Assembly (NCBI GenBank): GCA_023265515.1
Contig: JAHFSZ010000004.1
Span: forward strand, 14,704-58,998
Direction: 5' to 3'
DNA length: 44,295 nucleotides
DNA from: Verrucomicrobiota bacterium
GTDB lineage: Bacteria; Verrucomicrobiota; Verrucomicrobiia; JABWAM01; JAHFSZ01
Both the position numbers and the translations under genes were made by a program. This document shows positions 19,068 to 32,581 of this stretch, one piece after another. The stretch's first letter is position 1, and every line of letters starts with the position of its first letter. A model generated the notes under the pieces. It was not told the DNA's origin. It searched no databases and saw only the letters and a list, made by a program, of their open reading frames with translations.

Positions 19068-22025
19068 TCATTCTGGAGATGTCGCGATGGTCATGCCTTC
19101 TGCTGATTCCATTTTGACCGGCTTGCTCACCTTCCAAATATCGCCGATCGCAAACAGCCCGTAGATCGTCCCAAGAAACAATCCCAGAATGAGTAAAATG
19201 GCTTCTGAAACAACGATCAGCGTGAACGGGAGCACGAACCAATGGCTGGTGCCGAGCAGCGGCGCCAGCGGACCCACCGCCCAGTCGCCGCCAAAGAGAG
19301 CGGAAGCTTGTGCGAGTGGCGTGTACGAAACCCTTTCAAGAAAGGACCCCACCCATGGTTGCATGCCTGGAAGGTGCAGGAGGAGACCAAGACCAAGCGT
19401 TAACGCTCCAAGCATCCAATTCAGAATGGCGGCGATCCTCATTTTTAATCTCACACTTAACAGAAATGAAGTAAATGGAGCCGCAATCAACCCCAGCAGT
19501 ATGGGAGATGCCAGAACCACCCAGTGAAGTGGAATCCAATCGTAAAGACGAAATCGGTGCGTGAAAGCGGCCACAAACCCAAGGATGAGAGGCGGATACA
19601 AGAAGCCGATCCACTTGGACAAGATTTCCAGCCTGGCCCATTTTTTCCATAATTGCTTGGAAAAAATGGAGAAACTGCTTTCACCGCTCACGCCGGCTTG
19701 ATCACCCTCCAGGATATAGTTGTCCATCTTCTCCTTAAAGCGTCGATAATCATCGGAAAAGATGGCCGTTGGACCGATGGCAATACCGATCATGGCGCCC
19801 GCAATCCACAGATGCGCGGTACTCATTCCGATCAAGCCTCCCAAAATGTAAATGATGACAAACGCGATGCCGAGAGTGAACACAGGCCTGTAGAACCATA
19901 GATGCTCCCAGATCTGCGGTGTCTTGATCTCAATCGGATTGATCAACCAGGAGCCGCCTCTTGCATACTGCAGAAACCGGCGTAAATCCATAAAAACGCT
20001 TTTCAGGACGACTCTTGGCTTCATGAGTATTTGTGGATAGGTCGCTCCATTGAAGGATCCAAGCACTCCGGTTGCATGCATGACTTCGACCAACAATGTT
20101 TGAATGAGGGCGACGGGCGCCCACAAAATGCCGGTGATGAGATTCGCTGGCAATTTGTAACCGAAGAAAACGGGATGCTCGATGCGTTCGAGCAATGGCA
20201 CCGTAAACTTTTGCTGAATCACCAATAAGATGATCACCATGGTACACCACCACGCCCCTTCCGGTATGAGGACTTCCAGCTTTCCGAAGAGCAGGGATTT
20301 ATAGAGAAACCCTCCGATGAGGATCCACAAGAGGAGGATATCGCCAAACAACCTGCGATTCACGAGGTCATTTAATAAAGCCCCCCTCGCGCCTCTTGCA
20401 ACGGATCTTCCGATGAATCTTAACCACAATTGAGGGACATCAAATGACGGAATCCATTTCGCCGACCACCGCCAAAAATCCACGATCACACCGACCGGTC
20501 GATCGTCCAGGATGATGGGTTCATGCTTGAGGCGTTCCGCCAAGGCCACGCCTCGGGTAACCAGAGGGGGATGCTCGTTGCCGGCAAGTTGTCTGAGGAG
20601 TGTGTCCTTAAAGGTATCAAATGCGCGACGATGGAGCGGCCCTCCCCTCCAAAGCCATGGGAATTTCCACTTCATCCCCTTCTTGGCCCACGACCAGAGT
20701 GAGTTTGCATCCTCGGACATATGGCTGATCAGCTCATCCTCGCTGTTGAATCCCCCCATGATGAGCCTTGAGAACAAATCATCGACCGACTGCTGGTCCT
20801 GGATGACAGCTGGTCTCGACGTCAGTTTCATCAACCAGTGCAACAGAACCCCTGAATACAGGTAGATTTTTGTGAAATAGCAGCCAAACGGAAATCCTGG
20901 TCGCGGTGAAAAGAGTTGATCGAAGTCAGTTGTGCGAGATCCATACTTACCAAATGCCCTGATGCCACCGCATACTTGCGCCAATCCTCGTTGCGTGAAC
21001 CACATATAATGATGTGACCATTGCTCCTGAAAACCCAGTAATGAAGGAGCATAGAGTCCTTCGAACGGCATGTAATAATCCGTTCTGCCCTGGAAGATGG
21101 AAAACTCCTGATGCTCATGGATCAGGTTTAAAAGGTAGAGCCCGCCGCCAGGCGCCAGGAAATTGGTGTCGTCCATGCTGATCCAGAGTTTGACCCTTGG
21201 ATTTCCCGGACTGAAGGGTCTGATTTTTCCCAAATTCGGGCTTTCTTTTGCCTGCTCCCAATCGAGCACACCTTCTTTTGTGATCACCCCGGCGAAGAAA
21301 GGCTGCATCATAAACATCGGCACCAACAGAAATTCGTCCGCCTGTTGGGTCGCATGGGCCAAATGTGGCAAGCCAGTGCGATAGAAGTATTTTCCTATTT
21401 GAAAGCGTGCGGGTTCCATCGCATCCGAGGAATATTTACCCGCGAGGAGTCCTTCGCGATATTCGATCTGGCCCCACCATTTATCCGGAGTGCCGTCCTC
21501 TCCCCAGATGGCGTAACGAAGCATGGAGGCCCCCAGTTTTGGCTTTCGCCCTCCCGGCAACAGCCATATTTGGAACCGGGATTCTCCAGAACGAGCGATC
21601 CCCTTCCCGTCAGTCCATGTGAATTCCTTCCAATACGGCTCGGCGGCTTTCTGAATGACCGAGAAGAACTCCGACCCGGTTAAACCCGCTATCTTGTAGT
21701 GAGGGTCATCAGGATGGTCCACCATGTGTGGCAGTTGCTGGTGGTTTAATTGAAGGATGGCCACCAATTGTTCATCATTATTCCCCCTTAACGAATAGGC
21801 CATTCTCAGTAAGATCTCGCGAACATTGGCCTCAAGTTCCGCCTTGTTCGTTCCAGTCGGAAGCCATGGGCGCAACTCCACAGCGATTTCCTCCTCTCCC
21901 AAAGGCAGGGTGTGAATGGGATTTGCGGCTACCGGCTGAGTTGGATCGATATCGAACGCCACCCTGGCAGGTCCCGCCAACCTGAAATGCCTTTGATGCA
22001 ACCTCTTCAGCTCAGTTAAATGCAA
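19068..22025 (-). CDS. Large polytopic membrane protein, faintly OpgH/GT2 glucan-synthase-like
   Basis: A 985-residue protein I do not firmly recognise. Residues 1-545 are soluble; 550-962 contain roughly nine membrane helices (about 560-580, 590-604, 624-650, 713-735, 738-756, 805-822, 833-858, 864-885, 928-962). Two features recall GT2 glucan synthases such as OpgH/MdoH. One is LWISMDDTNFL (Asp285-Asp286), followed by an acidic/aromatic stretch with EFSIFQGRTDYY and QVCGGIRAFGKYG, in the order expected for the donor-binding DxD region. The other is WVVLASPILLGLIAAPFTSF (836-855), close in pattern to the terminal helices of OpgH. A canonical QxxRW was not found, so activity is uncertain. The apparent start is a TTG two nt after the giant gene's stop, with AGAGGAG ten nt upstream; a repeat at this junction suggests the original start was elsewhere. 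It shares the transcript and low GC of the upstream giant gene. Confidence 0.6.
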   Translation of the reverse strand: MHLTELKRLHQRHFRLAGPARVAFDIDPTQPVAANPIHTLPLGEEEIAVELRPWLPTGTNKAELEANVREILLRMAYSLRGNNDEQLVAILQLNHQQLPHMVDHPDDPHYKIAGLTGSEFFSVIQKAAEPYWKEFTWTDGKGIARSGESRFQIWLLPGGRKPKLGASMLRYAIWGEDGTPDKWWGQIEYREGLLAGKYSSDAMEPARFQIGKYFYRTGLPHLAHATQQADEFLLVPMFMMQPFFAGVITKEGVLDWEQAKESPNLGKIRPFSPGNPRVKLWISMDDTNFLAPGGGLYLLNLIHEHQEFSIFQGRTDYYMPFEGLYAPSLLGFQEQWSHHYMWFTQRGLAQVCGGIRAFGKYGSRTTDFDQLFSPRPGFPFGCYFTKIYLYSGVLLHWLMKLTSRPAVIQDQQSVDDLFSRLIMGGFNSEDELISHMSEDANSLWSWAKKGMKWKFPWLWRGGPLHRRAFDTFKDTLLRQLAGNEHPPLVTRGVALAERLKHEPIILDDRPVGVIVDFWRWSAKWIPSFDVPQLWLRFIGRSVARGARGALLNDLVNRRLFGDILLLWILIGGFLYKSLLFGKLEVLIPEGAWWCTMVIILLVIQQKFTVPLLERIEHPVFFGYKLPANLITGILWAPVALIQTLLVEVMHATGVLGSFNGATYPQILMKPRVVLKSVFMDLRRFLQYARGGSWLINPIEIKTPQIWEHLWFYRPVFTLGIAFVIIYILGGLIGMSTAHLWIAGAMIGIAIGPTAIFSDDYRRFKEKMDNYILEGDQAGVSGESSFSIFSKQLWKKWARLEILSKWIGFLYPPLILGFVAAFTHRFRLYDWIPLHWVVLASPILLGLIAAPFTSFLLSVRLKMRIAAILNWMLGALTLGLGLLLHLPGMQPWVGSFLERVSYTPLAQASALFGGDWAVGPLAPLLGTSHWFVLPFTLIVVSEAILLILGLFLGTIYGLFAIGDIWKVSKPVKMESAEGMTIATSPE

Positions 22026-22075
22026 TTTTAGCAGGCTCCTCTAACCTGAAATGTCTTTGATGCAACCCTTTCAAC
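21967..22075. repeat. 45-bp imperfect direct repeat spanning the junction of the two giant-locus genes
   Basis: Segments 21967-22011 and 22031-22075 agree at 37 of 45 positions with an offset of 64 bp. In the reading frame of the 985-residue protein both copies encode the same motif: LKRLHQRHFRLAGPARVAFD in the downstream copy and LKGLHQRHFRLEEPAKIAFN, followed by a stop, in the upstream copy. In the upstream copy the giant gene is read in another frame and ends there. Confidence 0.8.
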
Positions 22076-25000
22076 GGATTTGTGATGCCTGATAATGGCA
22101 TAGGGTGATTTTGTGAACCGGTGAAAAGTCTTGGAGCAGATAAGGATCAACAGGCCATGGAGGATGATCACAGCGATGAATACCCAATGATGAAGCACAT
22201 GGTTGAGAAGATGGTTGAGCGGTGTGCTGCCCGCCCAATAATAGATCATGCCAAGAATCCAGATGACGGCGGTTAAAATTGCTCTTGGATATACAATGAT
22301 TTGAAGGATGGTCAGCGCCGGAAAAACTCGAAGCAGGTAAGCCAATGGCAATAGAAAGAGAACCGCGGACCAGGTGGAGAAGGCTTCGGGATTTGGATTA
22401 AAGACCACTAAACCCCATAGCGCCAAGAAGGTTGTCCAAAATATTATTAAAAAGTTGAAGAGTAAGATGTTGAATCTAAACGTAATGTTCGGCGACCACT
22501 CCTGCAATCGGCTTACCAGACCACGCATGGGCTCGTTCAATCGACCAAAAGCAACCACCCGGATGATCGAACCTCCAATGGCGATGATGAAGGCCGCCAA
22601 ACTGATATGCTCGATGGGTTCATGATTTTCACCCAACAACCATTTCGCCCAAAATGGCCTGTCGTTGGCTTTGACCAGCTCCATGATTCTGGGCAACTCG
22701 ATTTGTCTGGCTGATTCGTTTAAGTTGCGCTGGGTCTTCCAATCCAGCCTTGCCATTTCTTTGTTGGCGGCATTTGGAAAAAGCAGGTTTAACAGATGCA
22801 ATTTTTTCATCGGGTTGGATTGCCTCTCGTCAATGTGGATGAGCAATTCAACCTCCGACAGAGGCTCGATTCGTGTTCCGGCTAATTCATCGAAGATCTC
22901 TGCGTTATTCAATTTATGGACGGCATAGTCGATGAGTTCCTGCCTTCTGCCTATATTCTCCGTCAGTCGTCTGAGATCCAATACGTCCAATTGTTGATCG
23001 ACCAGCTTACGGGATATATTTTCGAGTATCTCATTTTTTCGGGCAGGATTTTGTGCCAACTGAATTTGTAATGAGCGCGCAGTCGTCGGCTCGGTTGTCA
23101 GTTGATGAATGGAAGGGGGCAGATCCGAATGTTTGATGTCTTGCGCTGGGGTAAAGAGAAACGGCAGTTCATCTTCTATTTGCGTGATTAACGCGTGTTG
23201 TTCATAATCCCGCTTCGGCGGGTAATACACGCGGGCGACACCCAGCTTTAAGGCCGTGTCAGCATAGAAAAGGTAGGCCTCGTCCGGCAGATCGAGCTTA
23301 AGTTCACGGCATAAGGTTCGCAGACGCGCGGCGACCACCAGCCAGTTCTCCAGTGCTTGTTTGGAGACTCGGCTGTAGAACGCTGAGGCCCCGGTTCGCA
23401 GCGCTTCGTTCCATATTTCCCCTTTCGCGCCCTGCATGAACGAATATTTTTTGAACAGATTAAATGCGCAATCTGCCAAATCGATTTGTTTGATGGTCGT
23501 TTCGGTCCTCTCGGGCAATCCTTCATCCACCGACCTGATCGTCGTCAATCCGTGTTCCACTTTTGACTTCAGTCCTTCTGCCACCCTCTCTTGATCCGAT
23601 GGATCAACGATTCCCCAAGCATTAAACACCTCGTCCGTTAATGACCCTATGATTGCCTCTTTATCCCTGCTGTCGATGTTGCCCAGTGATTCTTTTGGCA
23701 ACTTGCTGCTTACGATTTGCGGCAATTTTATAAACCGCAAATAGGCCTCTTGTCGTGTGTAGCCCATCTCTTCGGCCTTTTGGGTATAAAAGCCGATTTT
23801 ACCCGTCGTAAGACTTTCGTGCGAGTAGCGGGACATGAAATCCTTTAACGCGACTCTGAATCGAGGATCCTTGTATTTGTCCTTCTCCCCGATCCTTCTT
23901 GCCTCCCGCTCCTCAAGTATTTTTGCCATGACTGGTTTAACGACTTCTTCTTCGGCAAGCATTTTGCGATGAAATGCAGCGCTTTCCTCTTTCCGCTCTC
24001 TCAAGTTGACCAGGCTTTCAATGACGGAGTGGCTGATTAAATCCCTTAATTTCAGCCAGTAAGGTTGAGCCATCCCCTCGAGGTGTTTGTTGTCCGGATG
24101 ATTTCGGTATAAAGCGGGGACGACGATATCAAGGAATACCTCTCTCGTATCCAGCATGCAGGACACAAAATCCTGCTGTACGCCCTCGATTTCAGATTCA
24201 GTCCTGCCGGCGCTTTTCATCTCGTTCCTGATGATTTCCCATTGCGTCAGCCACCAATTTTCCTCCTCCTTTGCCATCGGAACTCCCACAGCAACATAAT
24301 AGGCCAGCCATAATAATCTTATGTTGTTGTTGGGTCCTAAATCCCTGTAACTTGGATCCAGTTTAAAGATGCTGGCGATTCGTTTACCCAGCGCATATCT
24401 CTGCGATCGATGAAGGCTCAATCTTCCCTGCCGAAAGGTTTCGATGCTTGAATTGAGAACCAAGAATGGCAGTATAAATTTTCCTTCTGAATTGATCCAC
24501 ATGAGCGCCTGGGTGTACGCCGCATCAAGCACCCAGTTTTGAATGTATTCAAAACCGGCTCTTTCCGACTTATCAATGATTCCCAGTTCCTGTAATCGAT
24601 AGATTCTCGTCGCGAGGCCCAGCCTTTGATTATCAGTAATAAGATTAAACTGTTGCTCGAACTCCCCGCCCGTTACTCCCTGGTTGCCATGTTGCATCAT
24701 TTGAATTTCATAGCTTGTGATAAAGGGCAGAGACAACAACTTGGCGCCCAGGATTCCATCGTATTTCAATATGGCGGCCACCTCATCCCTTGTTCTTGCT
24801 CCTCTTCGTATCTGCTCCAGGTATGAGCCCAATACCTGCGACGGGAGTCCGCTTACCATCGGATCCTTCTTGTGGTGGTAGATGTAGATGGACTGCAGAA
24901 ATAATTCATTTGCTGTTTCATTTAAGAGGTCTTCCCTTGTCAGGTTTCTCAAGGAAATGTATCTTGAGACCATTGCCACCGCATCCTGAACACTGACATC

Positions 25001-28000
25001 GATATCGATAAGTCCGGCTGAATAGTGTTTGTCGGTTCCGGTTAGAAGACCCAACATGCCATTGAGATCCCTCATGCTCATCCACCACGGGCGGGTTTGC
25101 GGCTTTGCTTTGATCGCTTCGAGTTCTTGCTGCACTTTTTCGCCGATGATTTTATAGCGATTTTTTGCCGCAGCTAAATCCGCGATGAACTCCTCGATAG
25201 CCTTCGTTCTGGAAAGTCCCGGCTTGCTTTGATATCTCTCGCCGGGCATCTTCCCATCGATCAGCCTGCAAATGTAGAAATCTGTTCCAGACTCGAGGCT
25301 GATTCCTTCTCTTTGGGCGAATGTTTGAATGGCAATCAAGTCTTGCAAGGTTTGCAGAAGCGCCTCCGGAGGCTCCCGTTTATAATCGCGCAGCCTCATC
25401 AAGGCCTGCGTGATCCCGCCGATCTTCCCCCAGTACATGCTCTGCTCGGCCACGCTTTGCAGCTTCTCCGGCATGGGCGTTCCCAGTAAGTTGTAATATT
25501 GGGCGATCTCTCTTTTGCCGTGATCAATCATCCAGATCAGGTTCGACAAATAGGATTGAAGTTCCCTTGGCTTGAATACGCCCCGGTTGTCGGTGATTGA
25601 ATCCAGGACATTGACGATGAGTAATCCCTGCACTTCCGGGTAGAACCACCCAATACCCTCCGATATGCCTAATTGCCGGTTCACCAACTTTTTGGTTTCT
25701 GGCATTTGCTTCACTTCGATGAGGTAGCCAATGAGCTCTCTGAATGAACTCGCGGCTTGCCCAAGCTGTTCTTCGGTCGCCTGCTCGAAATCCTTGCCTT
25801 TGGTTGCATCACGAACGAATCGATTCACCCAATAAATTGCAGAGCCCGTGGCAACTTGCTTACGCAACTTGTTTTGCTCTTCCAATATCTGGACTCCAAG
25901 CCACTTTTTTTCGAGGTAATCTGTCGCGGCGTTGTAATATTCGATGAGCAATTTCAATCTCTCTGCTTCGGGGCGGTTGACGAGTTGAGGGAGCGTGATT
26001 TCGCCGTAATATTTGTTAAGTTCAGCGGCGAATATATTGACCGTTTTTGAATAGGCTTCGATGAGCTGTGGTTTGTCCTCCCATCCTCTCGCCATCACGG
26101 AAGATGAAATAAAATGAAGTATGCCCATGCTCCGTATATCATCAAATGAACGAATAGCCTCCTCTGGATACAAGACTTTGGCTGCGCTCACCATTTTTTG
26201 CCTTAAGCGTGCGATTGCAATCGGATCGATTTTTGAGAGCATGGTTGACTCGACTCTCCGCGCCAATTGAGTCTGCCACTCGATGAAGTCCGCCAGTTTA
26301 TCGGTTGTTTTGGCGGGCTGATTCGGCAATCTTTCGAGAAGTCTCTGCGCATCCTGATGGATGAGGCGTGTCATCCGGTTGAATCTTTCCTGCTCGATGT
26401 CGGCCACGCCATGCTTCGCAAGCATTTCCGTCGATAATATTCCACCCGGCTGTTCGTAGATTTGAGATAAACGGGCGTAATATAAACTGAGTCCCAATTT
26501 CTTAAGAAGATTTTCGTCCACCGTGACGGCGACATCTGAATCCGACATGATATCGAAGTAATCGGGAAACAGGTCCTTAAATGCCGGCTCTACAAAAAAT
26601 TGCATGAAGAACGGCATTTGATCAGATCGATGCAATGGCGATAGTGTTTCGAACACGATTGGACCATAGCGCCTCACCCTTTTGAACGTGTCTTCATCGA
26701 ATTGATATCTCTTCAGGAGTTCGTCCAGAAGAACGCACCAATCGGCATGGTTCAGCAGGTGCTGGTCGGTCGCCCGTATGTGACAACTGCTCAATAATTC
26801 AGTAACATCGGTTTCGAAATCAGGCGGATAGCGTTGCGAGTGGTGAATGGGCCTGACTTCTCTCCATCCGCCCAAAGGCACAAAGCTGCCCAACTTAAAA
26901 CCGGTGGCAAATGGCACCGCGTCCACGCCGTCGTTGGCATCGACAGGCTGTGGCGCCTGTTGATGAGACGTCACTTGGGTTGGCGGCGCTTTGACATCGG
27001 AGATGATGGTCCGGATCCTCTCCCATAGGTGGTTCGTATCAACGATATAAAGGTCCGGCTCAGTCAGCTGGTCGAAGGGTGACTTGTTTGTGTTCGAAAC
27101 GACCTGGCCATATTCCTTGATCAATATCGCCTCATCAAAGAACCTTGAATATTGCTGAACATAATCGTTGTAGGCCGATTCCATTTCCCGCACGGATAGC
27201 ATGACATCAAACGCTTTGACTGAGCCTTTGAAATAGGCCGACATGTTGTCGACAACCAGATTTTCACCCCGCCTTACCCGGGTTAACGAATGGTTTAATC
27301 TTTCCGCTGTTTCCGGTAATTCTTGAATTGCCAATTTTAGATGGGCGGTAAGATCAACGAGATTTCGCTGATGTTGCGCCTTTGCTTTTCCCTCTTCCTT
27401 TTTGGCGATGTCCAATGATGCCGCCTGTTTGCCGCCATCAAAGAGGGTCCATCTCGCTTCAATTCCTGCAAAGATGCGCTCCCCAATCAAGGCCGTTGCC
27501 GTCAGCTTTGGAAGATAGGTATTGATCGCGTTTCTTTGCACGTCGAGCTTTGCTATTCTCACATGCAATGCGCTCGATCTTAAGGTCGGATTTTTTTCCA
27601 CTATTTCATCAATAAGACCTGTAATATCGTTGATTGACGAACCTGGAACATCAAAGTGAGTGATCGATTTTCCCGAACCATCCTTGAGTGTTACAAAGCC
27701 CGTGGTTTGTAACAATTTAAACAGCTCTATTCTTGTCTTGTTCAAATCATCCTCTGCGATGACTTGCAATCTCCTGCATCTGTTCATTTCGGAACCGACA
27801 TCCATGGTCTCAATGCTTTTCTCGGGTGAATATTTATCGATCGTTTTCGCGATTTCCAATAGACGTTGTAATAGGGTGTGTCCGTTTGTTTTAACAAGTT
27901 CGAGGTGGGCTTCCTGAGCCGCGAGTTTCGCGTAGAGTTGTTTGAAGGCGATGGTTGCCTCTAAGACGGCCTTCTCGACCAAGGCCTGGTTTTGATCAAC

Positions 28001-30847
28001 GGATAAGTCCGCGATCCTCATGAGGCTTGGATCCAAGGCGTCTCTCAAATCCCACGAGACGCCCAGATAAGGTGTGACTCTTAATGCTTGCGATCCGGAT
28101 ATGACGTCAAAGGTGTCTGTTGTCGTTGCCGTGGTAGTGCCACCTGAATCCGACAATAACGGATTGGTATCTCTGCCTATTTGAACGATGGAAAAGAATG
28201 TCGGCAGCTTGTCACGCAACACGCCGTCAAATTCAATTTCGGAGATCTGCTTGAGTAAGCGCGGTTTTGCAGAACTGGCATTGATGGCGGTTTTTATCAG
28301 TTCGTATTTCTTCTCGGAGCATGCTGGATAAATCACTCTTTCCTGCAGATTGGCCCCCCAGGCCGCCGCTTCAATGATGGATTGTTGTACCCGATAGTGT
28401 GATTGAAGAATATCCCGGGTTGTGTCGATTTCCTCTGAGCGTATGCCCCGTAATACGCTGATTTCGACCAGGCCCTTTTGGAGTTTATCCAGGTAGATCT
28501 GTTCCTGTTCCTTGAGGAGCTTTAATTGTTCTTCTGCTTCCGTCTTTTCACTTAAGGACCTGTGATAGGCCGTTGCTATTTCATTTCTGATCCGCCCCAT
28601 CGCTGCTTCTTGTTCGTTTTGGTCTTCCTGAACAAGGTTGAGCCTTGCTTCTTCCTCCTCAATTTTGAGCTTCCGATCACCGTTACAGAGCCAATCGATG
28701 AATGAACCGATTTCGCCGACAACGGGAATTCGACCAACAGTGTTTTCAGCGATCATTCCCACAAGCTTGACTGGAGTGGCTGAACCTAAAATCAACTGTC
28801 CGCTATATTCAGTATTTGTATCTTTCAGTTTTGCTATGGAGGCGAAAAAATCCAATTCGATTGGTATATTCCTTTTGATGATCTCTACTCTCGCATCTTG
28901 CAGCTCGTACTCTAATTGTCCGACCCTTTGGTCAATCGAGGCAATGTTTTGCTTTGGCAACCACCTGGGTTTGGCCGTTTGTATGGCGTAGAGATCCTCA
29001 ATATTTGGAATCATCAGCTTGGAACTGGTTGGCAATCCCAACAGCTCAATGAGATCCAGATCAGCCAATGCAGCATCTCTCCAGGCAAGAGTTGCGGCGG
29101 CTTTTATTTCATACAATTGGGCGATGGCCTCCTTTGTATCGATTAAGATGACCTGGTTGTTTGGATCCGAGGCCTGCTTTTCCGTGTACCAATTCAATTT
29201 TTCTTCTTGAAAGCTCAGCCGCCTATTCGTGATATCAATGTTCTCCTTGGCCTTGAGGATGTTGCCTATGCCAAGATCGATACCCAGGCAGGATCTCTCT
29301 TCCGATGCTTTGATTTGGGCCTGTTTTAATTCGGCGTAGGATCTAAGAAACTTTTCTTTGGCTTGTTTGGTATTGTCCCAGGATAGTTTGGCGCCAGCGG
29401 CCAATTGCCCCTCATTGATATCCTTAGCCCCCTTGCCGGGTATCTTTCCTATTCCAACGTCCTGCACTCCAATCAAGATATTGGACAGGTTTAATTGGTT
29501 CTCATTCGATACCTCAATTAACTTTTGAAGGAGAACCTGTTCCTCAACCTTTGAGATCTTAAAAATGACGGATTGTTTCTTAAGCAAATCTTCCAATTCC
29601 CTGGTGGAATGAACCGTTACTTCACTCGTCTGACTATCTTCTGCAGCCGGATCCAACCTATTTTTGATGGCTTTGATTTTTGAAAACCCATATTCCGCCG
29701 CCCTCAGATCAAATTGAGCCGCGTAATATTCGGTGAGCGCATCGATAAGTTCCCTGCCCGAACGAATATCTGCTGTTTCATGAATTGCCTTTCTCTTGCT
29801 CTCCAGCGCTTTGACCCTTAGCTGCTCGTAGTTGATCAATTCCAGCGCTGCTTTTTCTTCGATGAGGATTCTCTTGAACTGTGCGTTGAGGCTGTTTTCG
29901 AGCAATTGGGCCTGAAGTTTTACTTTCTCGATCTCCAATTCTCCCACTTTTTTATTAACATCCTTTGGTAGATCGATGAGGATATTAAAACCTCCACCCG
30001 TATTCGTCAGCGATATCCTAACCGAAAGCCCAAGCTTGTCTTTTGACGCCTCGATCCATGATTTTGCTTCTTGAATTCGAATGTCGTAATCTGCAATCGT
30101 CCTTTGCAATTGCGACAGGTGATTCGTCAGACCTTTTTTCTTGAGTGCGGCATCTTCATCATCGACAGATAAGTCGGAACTGATGTCTGGAATATCCTTT
30201 GTATCCAATCCTAATAAGGCGGCTAATCTGCTTTTGGATTCTCGGAGGTTTCGATTCGCTTCGGCATAAATCCGTTTTCTTTCATCAAACTGGGCTGTCA
30301 CCAAACTCAAGCTGCTGTTGCTGATCTTGCTTTCTCTGTTTCTTTCTTCATCCAGCCTGACGATGGATTCTGTTTCATCCAATGGCTGTTGATTTGCTCC
30401 CGCCAATCGATAATAGGATTGATATTCCCTGTAGGCGTCCAGGACTGTCAGAATAAAGCCCTTGGTCTTAAGCTCCCGGGTGATGGTTTCTCTCTCCGCA
30501 CTCAGTTTGGCTTCCTTAATGACGCCTTCTTCCGCAGGCGTTAATACCGGCAGGGTCATCTCGATCCCCCCAAAAAGACCATAGGTTAAAGTTGGATCGA
30601 GTTGGGTCCCAAGACCTACAAATAAATCGATCGACGGCCCAAACTTGGCTCTCGCCGCTTGGATGCCGATTTGTTTGATTTCTTCATCCAATTTGGCTGT
30701 TCGAACTTCCGGTTGATCGAGCGCGACCTCGATCAGGGCTGCGAGCTCGTCCGGTGGCTGGATGATTTCCTTATTTTCTCCGCCGACAATGCGGGAGGGA
30801 ATGCTGAGCAAGATGAGCAGAAGGCCGAGACTGAATCTTTTTGTCAT
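22028..30847 (-). CDS. Giant envelope protein: six TolC-type repeats, long helical region, C-terminal membrane bundle
   Basis: About 2,939 residues. A signal peptide (TKRFSLGLLLILLSIP) starts at the ATG at 30847; a GTG at 30898 lies upstream of the expected transcription start. The first 1,250 residues contain six outer-membrane-efflux (OEP/TolC) units, each with a pair of beta-strands flanked by long coiled-coil helices. The strand pairs lie near residues 70-103 (PSIDLFVGLG...GGIEMTLPVL), 271-298, 453-491 (GQLAAGAKLSWDN), 661-697, 884-934 (RVTPYLGVSWDLRD) and 1108-1140 (KLTATALIGER...IEARWTLFDGGKQ). Real TolC has two units per protomer and works as a trimer, so one chain carries a full trimer's set. 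Residues about 1,315-2,735 are helical, with no recognised family. Residues about 2,750-2,915 hold about five membrane helices. The gene is AT-richer than its neighbours. It is followed two nt later by the 985-residue polytopic protein. The TolC assignment is good; the overall function is unknown. Confidence 0.75.
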   Translation of the reverse strand: MTKRFSLGLLLILLSIPSRIVGGENKEIIQPPDELAALIEVALDQPEVRTAKLDEEIKQIGIQAARAKFGPSIDLFVGLGTQLDPTLTYGLFGGIEMTLPVLTPAEEGVIKEAKLSAERETITRELKTKGFILTVLDAYREYQSYYRLAGANQQPLDETESIVRLDEERNRESKISNSSLSLVTAQFDERKRIYAEANRNLRESKSRLAALLGLDTKDIPDISSDLSVDDEDAALKKKGLTNHLSQLQRTIADYDIRIQEAKSWIEASKDKLGLSVRISLTNTGGGFNILIDLPKDVNKKVGELEIEKVKLQAQLLENSLNAQFKRILIEEKAALELINYEQLRVKALESKRKAIHETADIRSGRELIDALTEYYAAQFDLRAAEYGFSKIKAIKNRLDPAAEDSQTSEVTVHSTRELEDLLKKQSVIFKISKVEEQVLLQKLIEVSNENQLNLSNILIGVQDVGIGKIPGKGAKDINEGQLAAGAKLSWDNTKQAKEKFLRSYAELKQAQIKASEERSCLGIDLGIGNILKAKENIDITNRRLSFQEEKLNWYTEKQASDPNNQVILIDTKEAIAQLYEIKAAATLAWRDAALADLDLIELLGLPTSSKLMIPNIEDLYAIQTAKPRWLPKQNIASIDQRVGQLEYELQDARVEIIKRNIPIELDFFASIAKLKDTNTEYSGQLILGSATPVKLVGMIAENTVGRIPVVGEIGSFIDWLCNGDRKLKIEEEEARLNLVQEDQNEQEAAMGRIRNEIATAYHRSLSEKTEAEEQLKLLKEQEQIYLDKLQKGLVEISVLRGIRSEEIDTTRDILQSHYRVQQSIIEAAAWGANLQERVIYPACSEKKYELIKTAINASSAKPRLLKQISEIEFDGVLRDKLPTFFSIVQIGRDTNPLLSDSGGTTTATTTDTFDVISGSQALRVTPYLGVSWDLRDALDPSLMRIADLSVDQNQALVEKAVLEATIAFKQLYAKLAAQEAHLELVKTNGHTLLQRLLEIAKTIDKYSPEKSIETMDVGSEMNRCRRLQVIAEDDLNKTRIELFKLLQTTGFVTLKDGSGKSITHFDVPGSSINDITGLIDEIVEKNPTLRSSALHVRIAKLDVQRNAINTYLPKLTATALIGERIFAGIEARWTLFDGGKQAASLDIAKKEEGKAKAQHQRNLVDLTAHLKLAIQELPETAERLNHSLTRVRRGENLVVDNMSAYFKGSVKAFDVMLSVREMESAYNDYVQQYSRFFDEAILIKEYGQVVSNTNKSPFDQLTEPDLYIVDTNHLWERIRTIISDVKAPPTQVTSHQQAPQPVDANDGVDAVPFATGFKLGSFVPLGGWREVRPIHHSQRYPPDFETDVTELLSSCHIRATDQHLLNHADWCVLLDELLKRYQFDEDTFKRVRRYGPIVFETLSPLHRSDQMPFFMQFFVEPAFKDLFPDYFDIMSDSDVAVTVDENLLKKLGLSLYYARLSQIYEQPGGILSTEMLAKHGVADIEQERFNRMTRLIHQDAQRLLERLPNQPAKTTDKLADFIEWQTQLARRVESTMLSKIDPIAIARLRQKMVSAAKVLYPEEAIRSFDDIRSMGILHFISSSVMARGWEDKPQLIEAYSKTVNIFAAELNKYYGEITLPQLVNRPEAERLKLLIEYYNAATDYLEKKWLGVQILEEQNKLRKQVATGSAIYWVNRFVRDATKGKDFEQATEEQLGQAASSFRELIGYLIEVKQMPETKKLVNRQLGISEGIGWFYPEVQGLLIVNVLDSITDNRGVFKPRELQSYLSNLIWMIDHGKREIAQYYNLLGTPMPEKLQSVAEQSMYWGKIGGITQALMRLRDYKREPPEALLQTLQDLIAIQTFAQREGISLESGTDFYICRLIDGKMPGERYQSKPGLSRTKAIEEFIADLAAAKNRYKIIGEKVQQELEAIKAKPQTRPWWMSMRDLNGMLGLLTGTDKHYSAGLIDIDVSVQDAVAMVSRYISLRNLTREDLLNETANELFLQSIYIYHHKKDPMVSGLPSQVLGSYLEQIRRGARTRDEVAAILKYDGILGAKLLSLPFITSYEIQMMQHGNQGVTGGEFEQQFNLITDNQRLGLATRIYRLQELGIIDKSERAGFEYIQNWVLDAAYTQALMWINSEGKFILPFLVLNSSIETFRQGRLSLHRSQRYALGKRIASIFKLDPSYRDLGPNNNIRLLWLAYYVAVGVPMAKEEENWWLTQWEIIRNEMKSAGRTESEIEGVQQDFVSCMLDTREVFLDIVVPALYRNHPDNKHLEGMAQPYWLKLRDLISHSVIESLVNLRERKEESAAFHRKMLAEEEVVKPVMAKILEEREARRIGEKDKYKDPRFRVALKDFMSRYSHESLTTGKIGFYTQKAEEMGYTRQEAYLRFIKLPQIVSSKLPKESLGNIDSRDKEAIIGSLTDEVFNAWGIVDPSDQERVAEGLKSKVEHGLTTIRSVDEGLPERTETTIKQIDLADCAFNLFKKYSFMQGAKGEIWNEALRTGASAFYSRVSKQALENWLVVAARLRTLCRELKLDLPDEAYLFYADTALKLGVARVYYPPKRDYEQHALITQIEDELPFLFTPAQDIKHSDLPPSIHQLTTEPTTARSLQIQLAQNPARKNEILENISRKLVDQQLDVLDLRRLTENIGRRQELIDYAVHKLNNAEIFDELAGTRIEPLSEVELLIHIDERQSNPMKKLHLLNLLFPNAANKEMARLDWKTQRNLNESARQIELPRIMELVKANDRPFWAKWLLGENHEPIEHISLAAFIIAIGGSIIRVVAFGRLNEPMRGLVSRLQEWSPNITFRFNILLFNFLIIFWTTFLALWGLVVFNPNPEAFSTWSAVLFLLPLAYLLRVFPALTILQIIVYPRAILTAVIWILGMIYYWAGSTPLNHLLNHVLHHWVFIAVIILHGLLILICSKTFHRFTKSPYAIIRHHKSVERVASKTFQVRGAC

Positions 30848-30887
30848 CGATGGGGCGATCTCCGGGCCAACGGTGCGGCCGGGCCTG

Positions 30888-30917
30888 ATTATACTCACAT
30901 CGACGATATTCTGTCAC
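30888..30917 (-). promoter_or_regulatory. Near-consensus promoter of the giant two-gene unit
   Basis: GTGACA (30912-30917), 18-nt spacer, perfect TATAAT (30888-30893) on the minus strand. Transcription would begin near 30881, giving a leader of about 34 nt to the ATG at 30847. This shows that the giant unit is transcribed independently of trxA. Confidence 0.65.
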
Positions 30918-31486: not shown

Positions 31487-32581
31487 CTAGATGACCAGAA
31501 CAACGCAAGCCGCAATCACGACGGCGGCAGCGACACCAGCCAGGGCGAGATCGAGGATGCTCACATCTTCTCCTCCTCCACCCCCGAGGGGGACGGAGCG
31601 AACGCTCGGCGCCGAACCCGGTTGCGGGCTGGCGGCGGGCAGTTTTACGGTGCTCGGAGGTGACTCCGTTTTAACGGTCGGTGCGGGCCCTCCCCCGGCT
31701 GCCATAGGGACCGGAACTTTGACCGTTCCGGGCACGGGCACCGGTTTTGGAGCGGCCGTGATCGGCTTGACCGGGGCCGGCGTCCCGGCGATTCGAGGCG
31801 CTGATGGCGGCTGTTGGGGCATGGCGGCGGGAATGGCGGGAATCTTGGCCGAAGAACCCGGTTTGCGCGGCGGCGCCGTCGGCGGCAGCGGCGCCGTCTT
31901 GCGAAGCGTCCCGGGGATGACGGGCGGTTTTACGCGTTCGGTCTGGCTCAGATCGGAAGGCGGCGAAGTCGGCGCGGCAGGCGGCCTGCCCGGCGTGGAC
32001 GGAACTTTGGGCGCGGAGGGCATGGCCGGCGCGATACGCGCAGTGGTCTCCGCCATATCCGGAGCAGGAGGTAATGGCCTGGAGGGTGCGGGAGGCGTGG
32101 CCACCGTGGGCGCGCTGCTCGGCGTGCCTCCGGGATTCATCGCGACGGGAGGACCGGGAGGCGGTGGAGGAGTGACGGCCGGCCTGGCAAATTGAGGTGG
32201 CGGAATTTTCGACGTGTCCGGCGGCGACGACTTGGGCGGCACTGGCGATTGGATGATCGCGCTTCCGGGTTTCAACGTCGGAGCCGGCGCCATCATCGTG
32301 GATCCGGCGGAGGGAGGCTTCATTGCCGATGCAACGGGTCCAGGAGGTTTGAGGCTGGTATCCGATCCTATCGCCTTATTCTTTTCCAAAAGCGAACTGG
32401 TTGTCATCGTCTTGCCCGTTTCCACATCGATCGAGCCGGGCTTCGGTTTGCGAAGCTGAATGCCGGGGGGAAGGCTGATGCGCACCGTGTCCTTCTTCGG
32501 TTCGGCGGGATTCGCGGGCGACGAAGCGCCTGAGGGTGGAGCAGGAGGTTTGGGCGGCGGAGGGGGAGTTGTTTCAGCCAT
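31487..32581 (-). CDS. Proline-rich, tail-anchored membrane protein
   Basis: A 364-residue low-complexity protein. After MAETTPPPPPKPP there is a short conserved-looking segment TVRISLPPGIQLRKPKPGSI (32-51), then about 270 residues dominated by Pro, Ala, Ser, Thr and Lys. A single C-terminal helix, LALAGVAAAVVIAACVVLVI, ends at the last residue. There is no signal peptide, so the disordered region should face the cytoplasm with a tail anchor in the inner membrane; that topology is inference. It has its own sigma70-type promoter and no close partner. The function is unknown; possibilities include a scaffold or a spacer between a membrane and a cytoplasmic target. Confidence 0.75.
   Translation of the reverse strand: MAETTPPPPPKPPAPPSGASSPANPAEPKKDTVRISLPPGIQLRKPKPGSIDVETGKTMTTSSLLEKNKAIGSDTSLKPPGPVASAMKPPSAGSTMMAPAPTLKPGSAIIQSPVPPKSSPPDTSKIPPPQFARPAVTPPPPPGPPVAMNPGGTPSSAPTVATPPAPSRPLPPAPDMAETTARIAPAMPSAPKVPSTPGRPPAAPTSPPSDLSQTERVKPPVIPGTLRKTAPLPPTAPPRKPGSSAKIPAIPAAMPQQPPSAPRIAGTPAPVKPITAAPKPVPVPGTVKVPVPMAAGGGPAPTVKTESPPSTVKLPAASPQPGSAPSVRSVPLGGGGGEDVSILDLALAGVAAAVVIAACVVLVI

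Follow-up and report, generated by a model that had tools for sequence, protein, structure and literature searches.

A giant reading frame in a verrucomicrobial genome as a candidate one-chain outer membrane factor of the TolC type

An outer membrane factor (OMF) is a trimer of two-repeat protomers, with 12 beta-strands and 12 helices in all; the accepted view of a TolC-type channel is that of a homotrimer whose opening engages three identical subunits at every step (PMC8277102). The ordinary OMF is 472 ± 30 aa long (PMC4827864). A contig of a Verrucomicrobiota bacterium carries a giant open reading frame, here called P1, with units that resemble the OEP family (PF02321), and the question is whether a single polypeptide could supply what is otherwise assembled from three. 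In what follows, the window is the whole stretch of 44,295 nucleotides that was analysed, and coordinates given without a locus name are positions in it. We consider it an evenly balanced proposition that P1 is a pseudo-symmetric one-chain outer membrane factor of the OMF/TolC superfamily, tethered to the inner membrane.

The giant reading frame and its OEP units

P1 and its parts are as follows.

22028..30847, minus strand: giant ORF P1, from the ATG at 30847 (mechanical ORF from the GTG at 30898; codon-position GC)
30779..30847, minus strand: signal-peptide-like N-terminus MTKRFSLGLLLILLSIPSRIVGG (read from the sequence; hydropathy)
30149..30766, minus strand: OEP unit U1, residues 45-250, hairpin 30542-30640 (PF02321 E = 4.4e-15)
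29624..30166, minus strand: OEP-like unit U2, residues 245-425, hairpin 29954-30037 (in-register BLAST, beta peak, amphipathic strands)
28979..29617, minus strand: OEP-like unit U3, residues 428-640, hairpin 29375-29491 (in-register BLAST, beta peak)
28283..28981, minus strand: putative OEP unit U4, residues 640-872, hairpin 28757-28867 (spacing, beta peak, strand 1, trace of PF02321)
27644..28303, minus strand: OEP unit U5, residues 866-1085, hairpin 28046-28198 (PF02321 E = 1.5e-4, hhalign 33.2)
27044..27652, minus strand: OEP unit U6, residues 1083-1285, hairpin 27428-27526 (PF02321 E = 2.5e-8, hhalign 63.8)
22619..27043, minus strand: soluble region of ~1,475 residues, residues 1286-2760, family unassigned (database searches)
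22121..22618, minus strand: C-terminal hydrophobic domain with ~5 predicted transmembrane helices, residues 2761-2926 (hydropathy)

The frame is uninterrupted from 22028 to 30898 on the minus strand, which makes 2,956 codons from the GTG at 30898. Residues are numbered from that GTG, so that the ATG at 30847, the probable start, is residue 18 and leaves ~2,940 codons. The GC content at the three codon positions is 0.52/0.36/0.55. Residues 18-40 resemble a signal peptide, with a hydropathy of 1.77 over residues 22-40. Comparison of P1 with itself by BLAST gave no internal repeats at E 10, and there is no tandem array within the frame.

We compared P1 with PF02321 both as a whole and unit by unit. 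The whole chain carries the significant OEP match by which membership of the OMF/TolC family is judged (E = 1.3e-21), with OEP found three times. The original prediction had expected six tandem matches; when the units were searched in isolation, three passed (U1, U5 and U6, at the E values listed), U2 and U3 gave no match, and U4 reached 6.4 bits (E = 9.5), in register. Against an hhalign reference profile of 66 OEP repeats from 33 OEPs of the class, U1, U5 and U6 had local scores of 72.6, 33.2 and 63.8, and U2, U3 and U4 scores of 13.0, 15.9 and 16.6, near the null (~11 ± 2 for shuffles; maximum 12.6 among 36 C-terminal windows). Scores for U2-U4 were likewise near null when units and protomers were aligned to class OEP profiles. 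In an ungapped scan with a hairpin PSSM, U1 and U6 alone stood out, and U6 retains the canonical strand-turn-helix motif. These comparisons identify U1, U5 and U6 as OEP units at the level of sequence similarity. It counts against a one-chain OMF that U2-U4 lack significant profile matches, U4 most of all, and that the units do not alternate cleanly between first-repeat and second-repeat profiles; the assignment to either repeat type is not discriminating.

For U2 and U3, BLAST with composition correction off gave matches of 29.3 bits (E ~2e-3) and 32.0 bits (E ~4e-4, to L046), respectively. Their targets are the second OEP repeats of L018, L043 and L046, OEPs from the same order or the same phylum as the source genome, and the strand-to-helix junction is in register. 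Of 200 shuffles, 2 attained the score in each case, and all 73 control windows from the C-terminal region fell below it; neither match was significant with composition-based statistics on. The similarity is suggestive of OEP units at U2 and U3. BLAST to OEPs did not recover U4, whose candidacy as an OEP unit rests on its context. One HSP covers U1+U2 of P1 against L043 and another covers U5+U6 against L007 and L031, as in ordinary protomers, so these boundaries fit three tandem protomers; no single BLAST alignment to OEPs spans U3+U4 as a full protomer. Alignment thus supports the first and the last of the three predicted protomers well, but not the middle one.

Hairpin placement and the middle units

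Six hairpin segments between long helices had been predicted, at P1 residues 87-119, 288-315, 470-508, 678-714, 901-951 and 1125-1157. Within residues 45-1285, the five strongest peaks of beta-propensity and low charge lie at 100, 303, 475, 710 and 937, which are hairpins 1-5; the peak of hairpin 6 is weaker and ranks behind a linker at 1077. We then slid the six intervals jointly along the region and scored the amphipathic beta signal over 1,231 rotations: the predicted phase came out best, and those that scored as well as it (7 of 1,231) all lay at shifts of at most 6 residues. Peaks and rotation test together uphold the predicted placement. For the intervals of U2-U4 by themselves, random placement has P ~0.01. 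The 12 candidate strands have a summed hydrophobic/polar alternation of 34.5, against 17.1 ± 3.7 for shuffles, with strand ends picked by eye; strand 1 of U4 is amphipathic (P = 0.009).

The distance from one junction of second strand and helix to the next is 194, 196, 204, 240 and 202 residues along P1. In 33 ordinary OEP proteins the same distance, repeat to repeat, is 212.5 ± 9.4 (range 198-235), and the P1 values (194-240) mostly fit. The step of 240 is that from U4 to U5, and U4 has an additional ~25 residues after its hairpin; both count against a one-chain OMF. As signatures in the sequence, P1 therefore presents two-strand hairpins between long helices at a spacing of ~200 residues.

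Structure prediction with AlphaFold2 returned models of low confidence, a point against the one-chain OMF. Residues 45-1244, run as a single sequence, had a pLDDT of 35.6, with a helix-strand-strand-helix drawn in U2. U3+U4, run with six fetched OEP rows, had a pLDDT of 47.1; long helices behind each hairpin were at ~50-75, the hairpins were unresolved and the strands fragmentary, in a run whose alignment placed the first strand of U3 badly. Foldseek found no match to this model at E <= 0.001, and returned generic coiled coils that included TolC-family chains.

Long helices with fragmentary strands would favour a rival arrangement in which P1 holds two true OMF protomers (U1+U2 and U5+U6), with U3+U4 a helical coiled-coil insertion, and assembles with its own copies instead of closing a barrel by itself. 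That U4 is not detectable as OEP and that U3+U4 give no full-protomer alignment would also fit this arrangement; yet the peaks at 475 and 710 fall exactly at the expected hairpins 3 and 4, U3 matches OEPs in register, the first strand of U4 is amphipathic, and the length and spacing of U3+U4 are protomer-like. We regard a coiled-coil insertion as unlikely. Three tandem TolC-type protomers are the best reading of the anatomy of P1 from its sequence: the first and last are well supported, and the putative middle protomer rests on spacing, hairpin placement, the amphipathic character of its strands and the weak match of U3 to OEPs in register. Six hairpins give exactly as many strands, 12, as an OMF trimer has, which counts in favour of a channel made from one chain.

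The C-terminal half, the adjoining gene and the genomic setting

The interval of the original prediction covers less than half of P1, and omits the helical region of ~1,475 residues, the C-terminal domain and the adjoining gene, P2.

19068..22025, minus strand: P2, 985 aa, a soluble N-terminal part of ~560 residues followed by ~8 transmembrane segments
21966..22075, minus strand: imperfect direct repeat of ~45 bp across the P1/P2 junction (sequence; tblastn echo of P2 residues 5-26)

Residues 1286-2760 of P1 have no Pfam or PDB match and none below E 0.1 in NCBIfam, and are probably located in the periplasm. The ~5 hydrophobic helices that follow end in a basic tail, which would lie in the cytoplasm, given an odd number of helices and a periplasmic N-terminal part. 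No ACR_tran (RND) domain is present in P1, and the C-terminal 1,626 residues have no Pfam match. P2 starts directly 3' of the P1 stop, and has no family match (none in Pfam at E 10) and no genome match in the phylum sample. A DD-x-N-x-L-x-P stretch led us to consider P2 as a GT2 glycosyltransferase; this was rejected, as hhalign scored 16.4 against 17.1 ± 2.8 for shuffled sequence, again with nothing in Pfam at E 10. The copies of the ~45-bp repeat lie 64 bp apart and span the P1 stop and the P2 start. Upstream of P1, positions 31487-32581 encode a proline-rich protein of 364 aa with a single C-terminal hydrophobic segment and no Pfam match.

P1 and P2 (19068-30847) form an AT-rich island, with GC of 0.46-0.52 and GC3 of 0.52-0.60, as against ~0.59 and ~0.75 in their neighbours, which are housekeeping genes; ordinary metabolic genes flank the pair on both sides of the same contig. 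This difference makes horizontal acquisition plausible. No relatives of P1 appeared in a first scan of genome contigs. BLAST of 384 genomes of the class and 388 of the phylum yielded weak matches of U1 to ordinary OEPs and nothing else; no relatives of either gene were found among plasmids and viral contigs, nor any of P2 in the phylum sample, and no giant gene or counterpart lies downstream of thrC in relatives. That no homologue of P1 is known counts against the one-chain OMF. The sample includes five relatives from the order of the source genome, all from another family.

The source assembly is MAG-like (2.2 Mb, 88.5% complete), which, with the divergent GC content and the lack of P1 relatives in the phylum sample, raises the prospect that the giant frame arose through faulty assembly or binning, or belongs to a piece of a foreign contig. 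We think this very improbable: the frame is stop-free over 8.8 kb with coding-type positional GC, metabolic genes stand on both flanks of one contig, P1 contains no tandem array, and horizontal acquisition would explain the GC content without any artefact.

OEP matches occur in all 22 relatives searched, two or more in each, and in the source assembly P1 is their sole carrier. This genome encodes two full RND pumps, one of which (CusA-type) adjoins a CusB-type adaptor (HlyD_D23, HMBD; L042 6535-11928). Next to that pump, a DUF2490 protein takes the position that is often filled by an OEP gene. A CusAB-type pair with no other OEP in the genome counts for P1 as a one-chain OMF. P1 might be the general exit duct of the cell, but the ~11% of the genome that the assembly lacks could contain an OEP gene. 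The same observation bears on whether P1 is instead an OMF-derived scaffold that has lost its pore, a long periplasmic coiled coil with a C-terminal inner-membrane anchor. The high divergence of U2-U4, the C-terminal multi-TM domain and the AT-rich, fast-evolving or foreign character of the gene would suit a scaffold; against it, the candidate strands keep their alternating hydrophobicity, U6 keeps the canonical motif, and the only OEP matches of a genome with CusAB-type parts sit in P1. Loss of the pore seems to us improbable.

Proposed architecture and its significance

We propose that P1 may be a tandem fusion of three diverged OMF protomers (U1+U2, U3+U4 and U5+U6), with one signal peptide ahead of them all. 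They would supply 3 x 4 = 12 strands to one barrel in the outer membrane and, to the alpha-barrel beneath it, 3 x 4 stretches of helix; closure of one 12-strand barrel by one chain is an inference. The ~1,475-residue helical region would span the periplasm, and the ~5 helices that end P1 would tether the exit duct covalently to the inner membrane, with P2 as its likely inner-membrane partner and export as the presumed function. In its fullest form, the proposal is of a TolC-type channel that occurs in nature as one polypeptide, has three protomers that differ from one another, is tethered covalently to an inner-membrane domain across the periplasm and serves as the only OMF of the cell; in this form it is tentative, somewhat short of even.

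P1 shares with the TolC/OMF family (TC 1.B.17, PF02321) a signal peptide, helix-strand-strand-helix units, a spacing of ~200 residues and, in three units, matches to the OEP profile. An ordinary member is one two-repeat protomer of ~470 aa that trimerises, whereas P1 has about six repeats in one chain of ~2,940 aa, with ~1,670 further residues that include C-terminal TM helices. RND-OMF fusions of Verrucomicrobiota (L051 433-4890 and L052 3966-8597, ACR_tran with two OEP repeats) occur in relatives. Like P1, they join an OMF covalently to an inner-membrane part, and as fusions within the class they are a precedent for such joining; their two OEP repeats are C-terminal, behind a complete ACR_tran, whereas the OMF units of P1 are N-terminal and no RND is present. 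The fused outer-membrane porins of alphaproteobacteria also hold two or three pore domains per polypeptide, but there each domain is a complete porin-type OMPP (PMC4827864), and each unit of P1 would be one sixth of a barrel. In the engineered, covalently linked AcrB trimer, the subunits of a natural homotrimer stand in one chain, as they may in P1; the linked AcrB is man-made and an inner-membrane pump (PMC8277102), whereas P1 is a natural protein of strongly diverged units. A search of open-access literature brought up no described tandem OMF.

If the proposal is true, P1 would form an exit duct from one chain, and the three-fold symmetry of that duct would be broken. A beta-barrel otherwise shared among subunits could then be built from one chain, and a duct of the outer membrane could have a permanent link to the inner one. 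The roles of the individual protomers in gating and adaptor docking would become testable by point mutation, as with linked AcrB.
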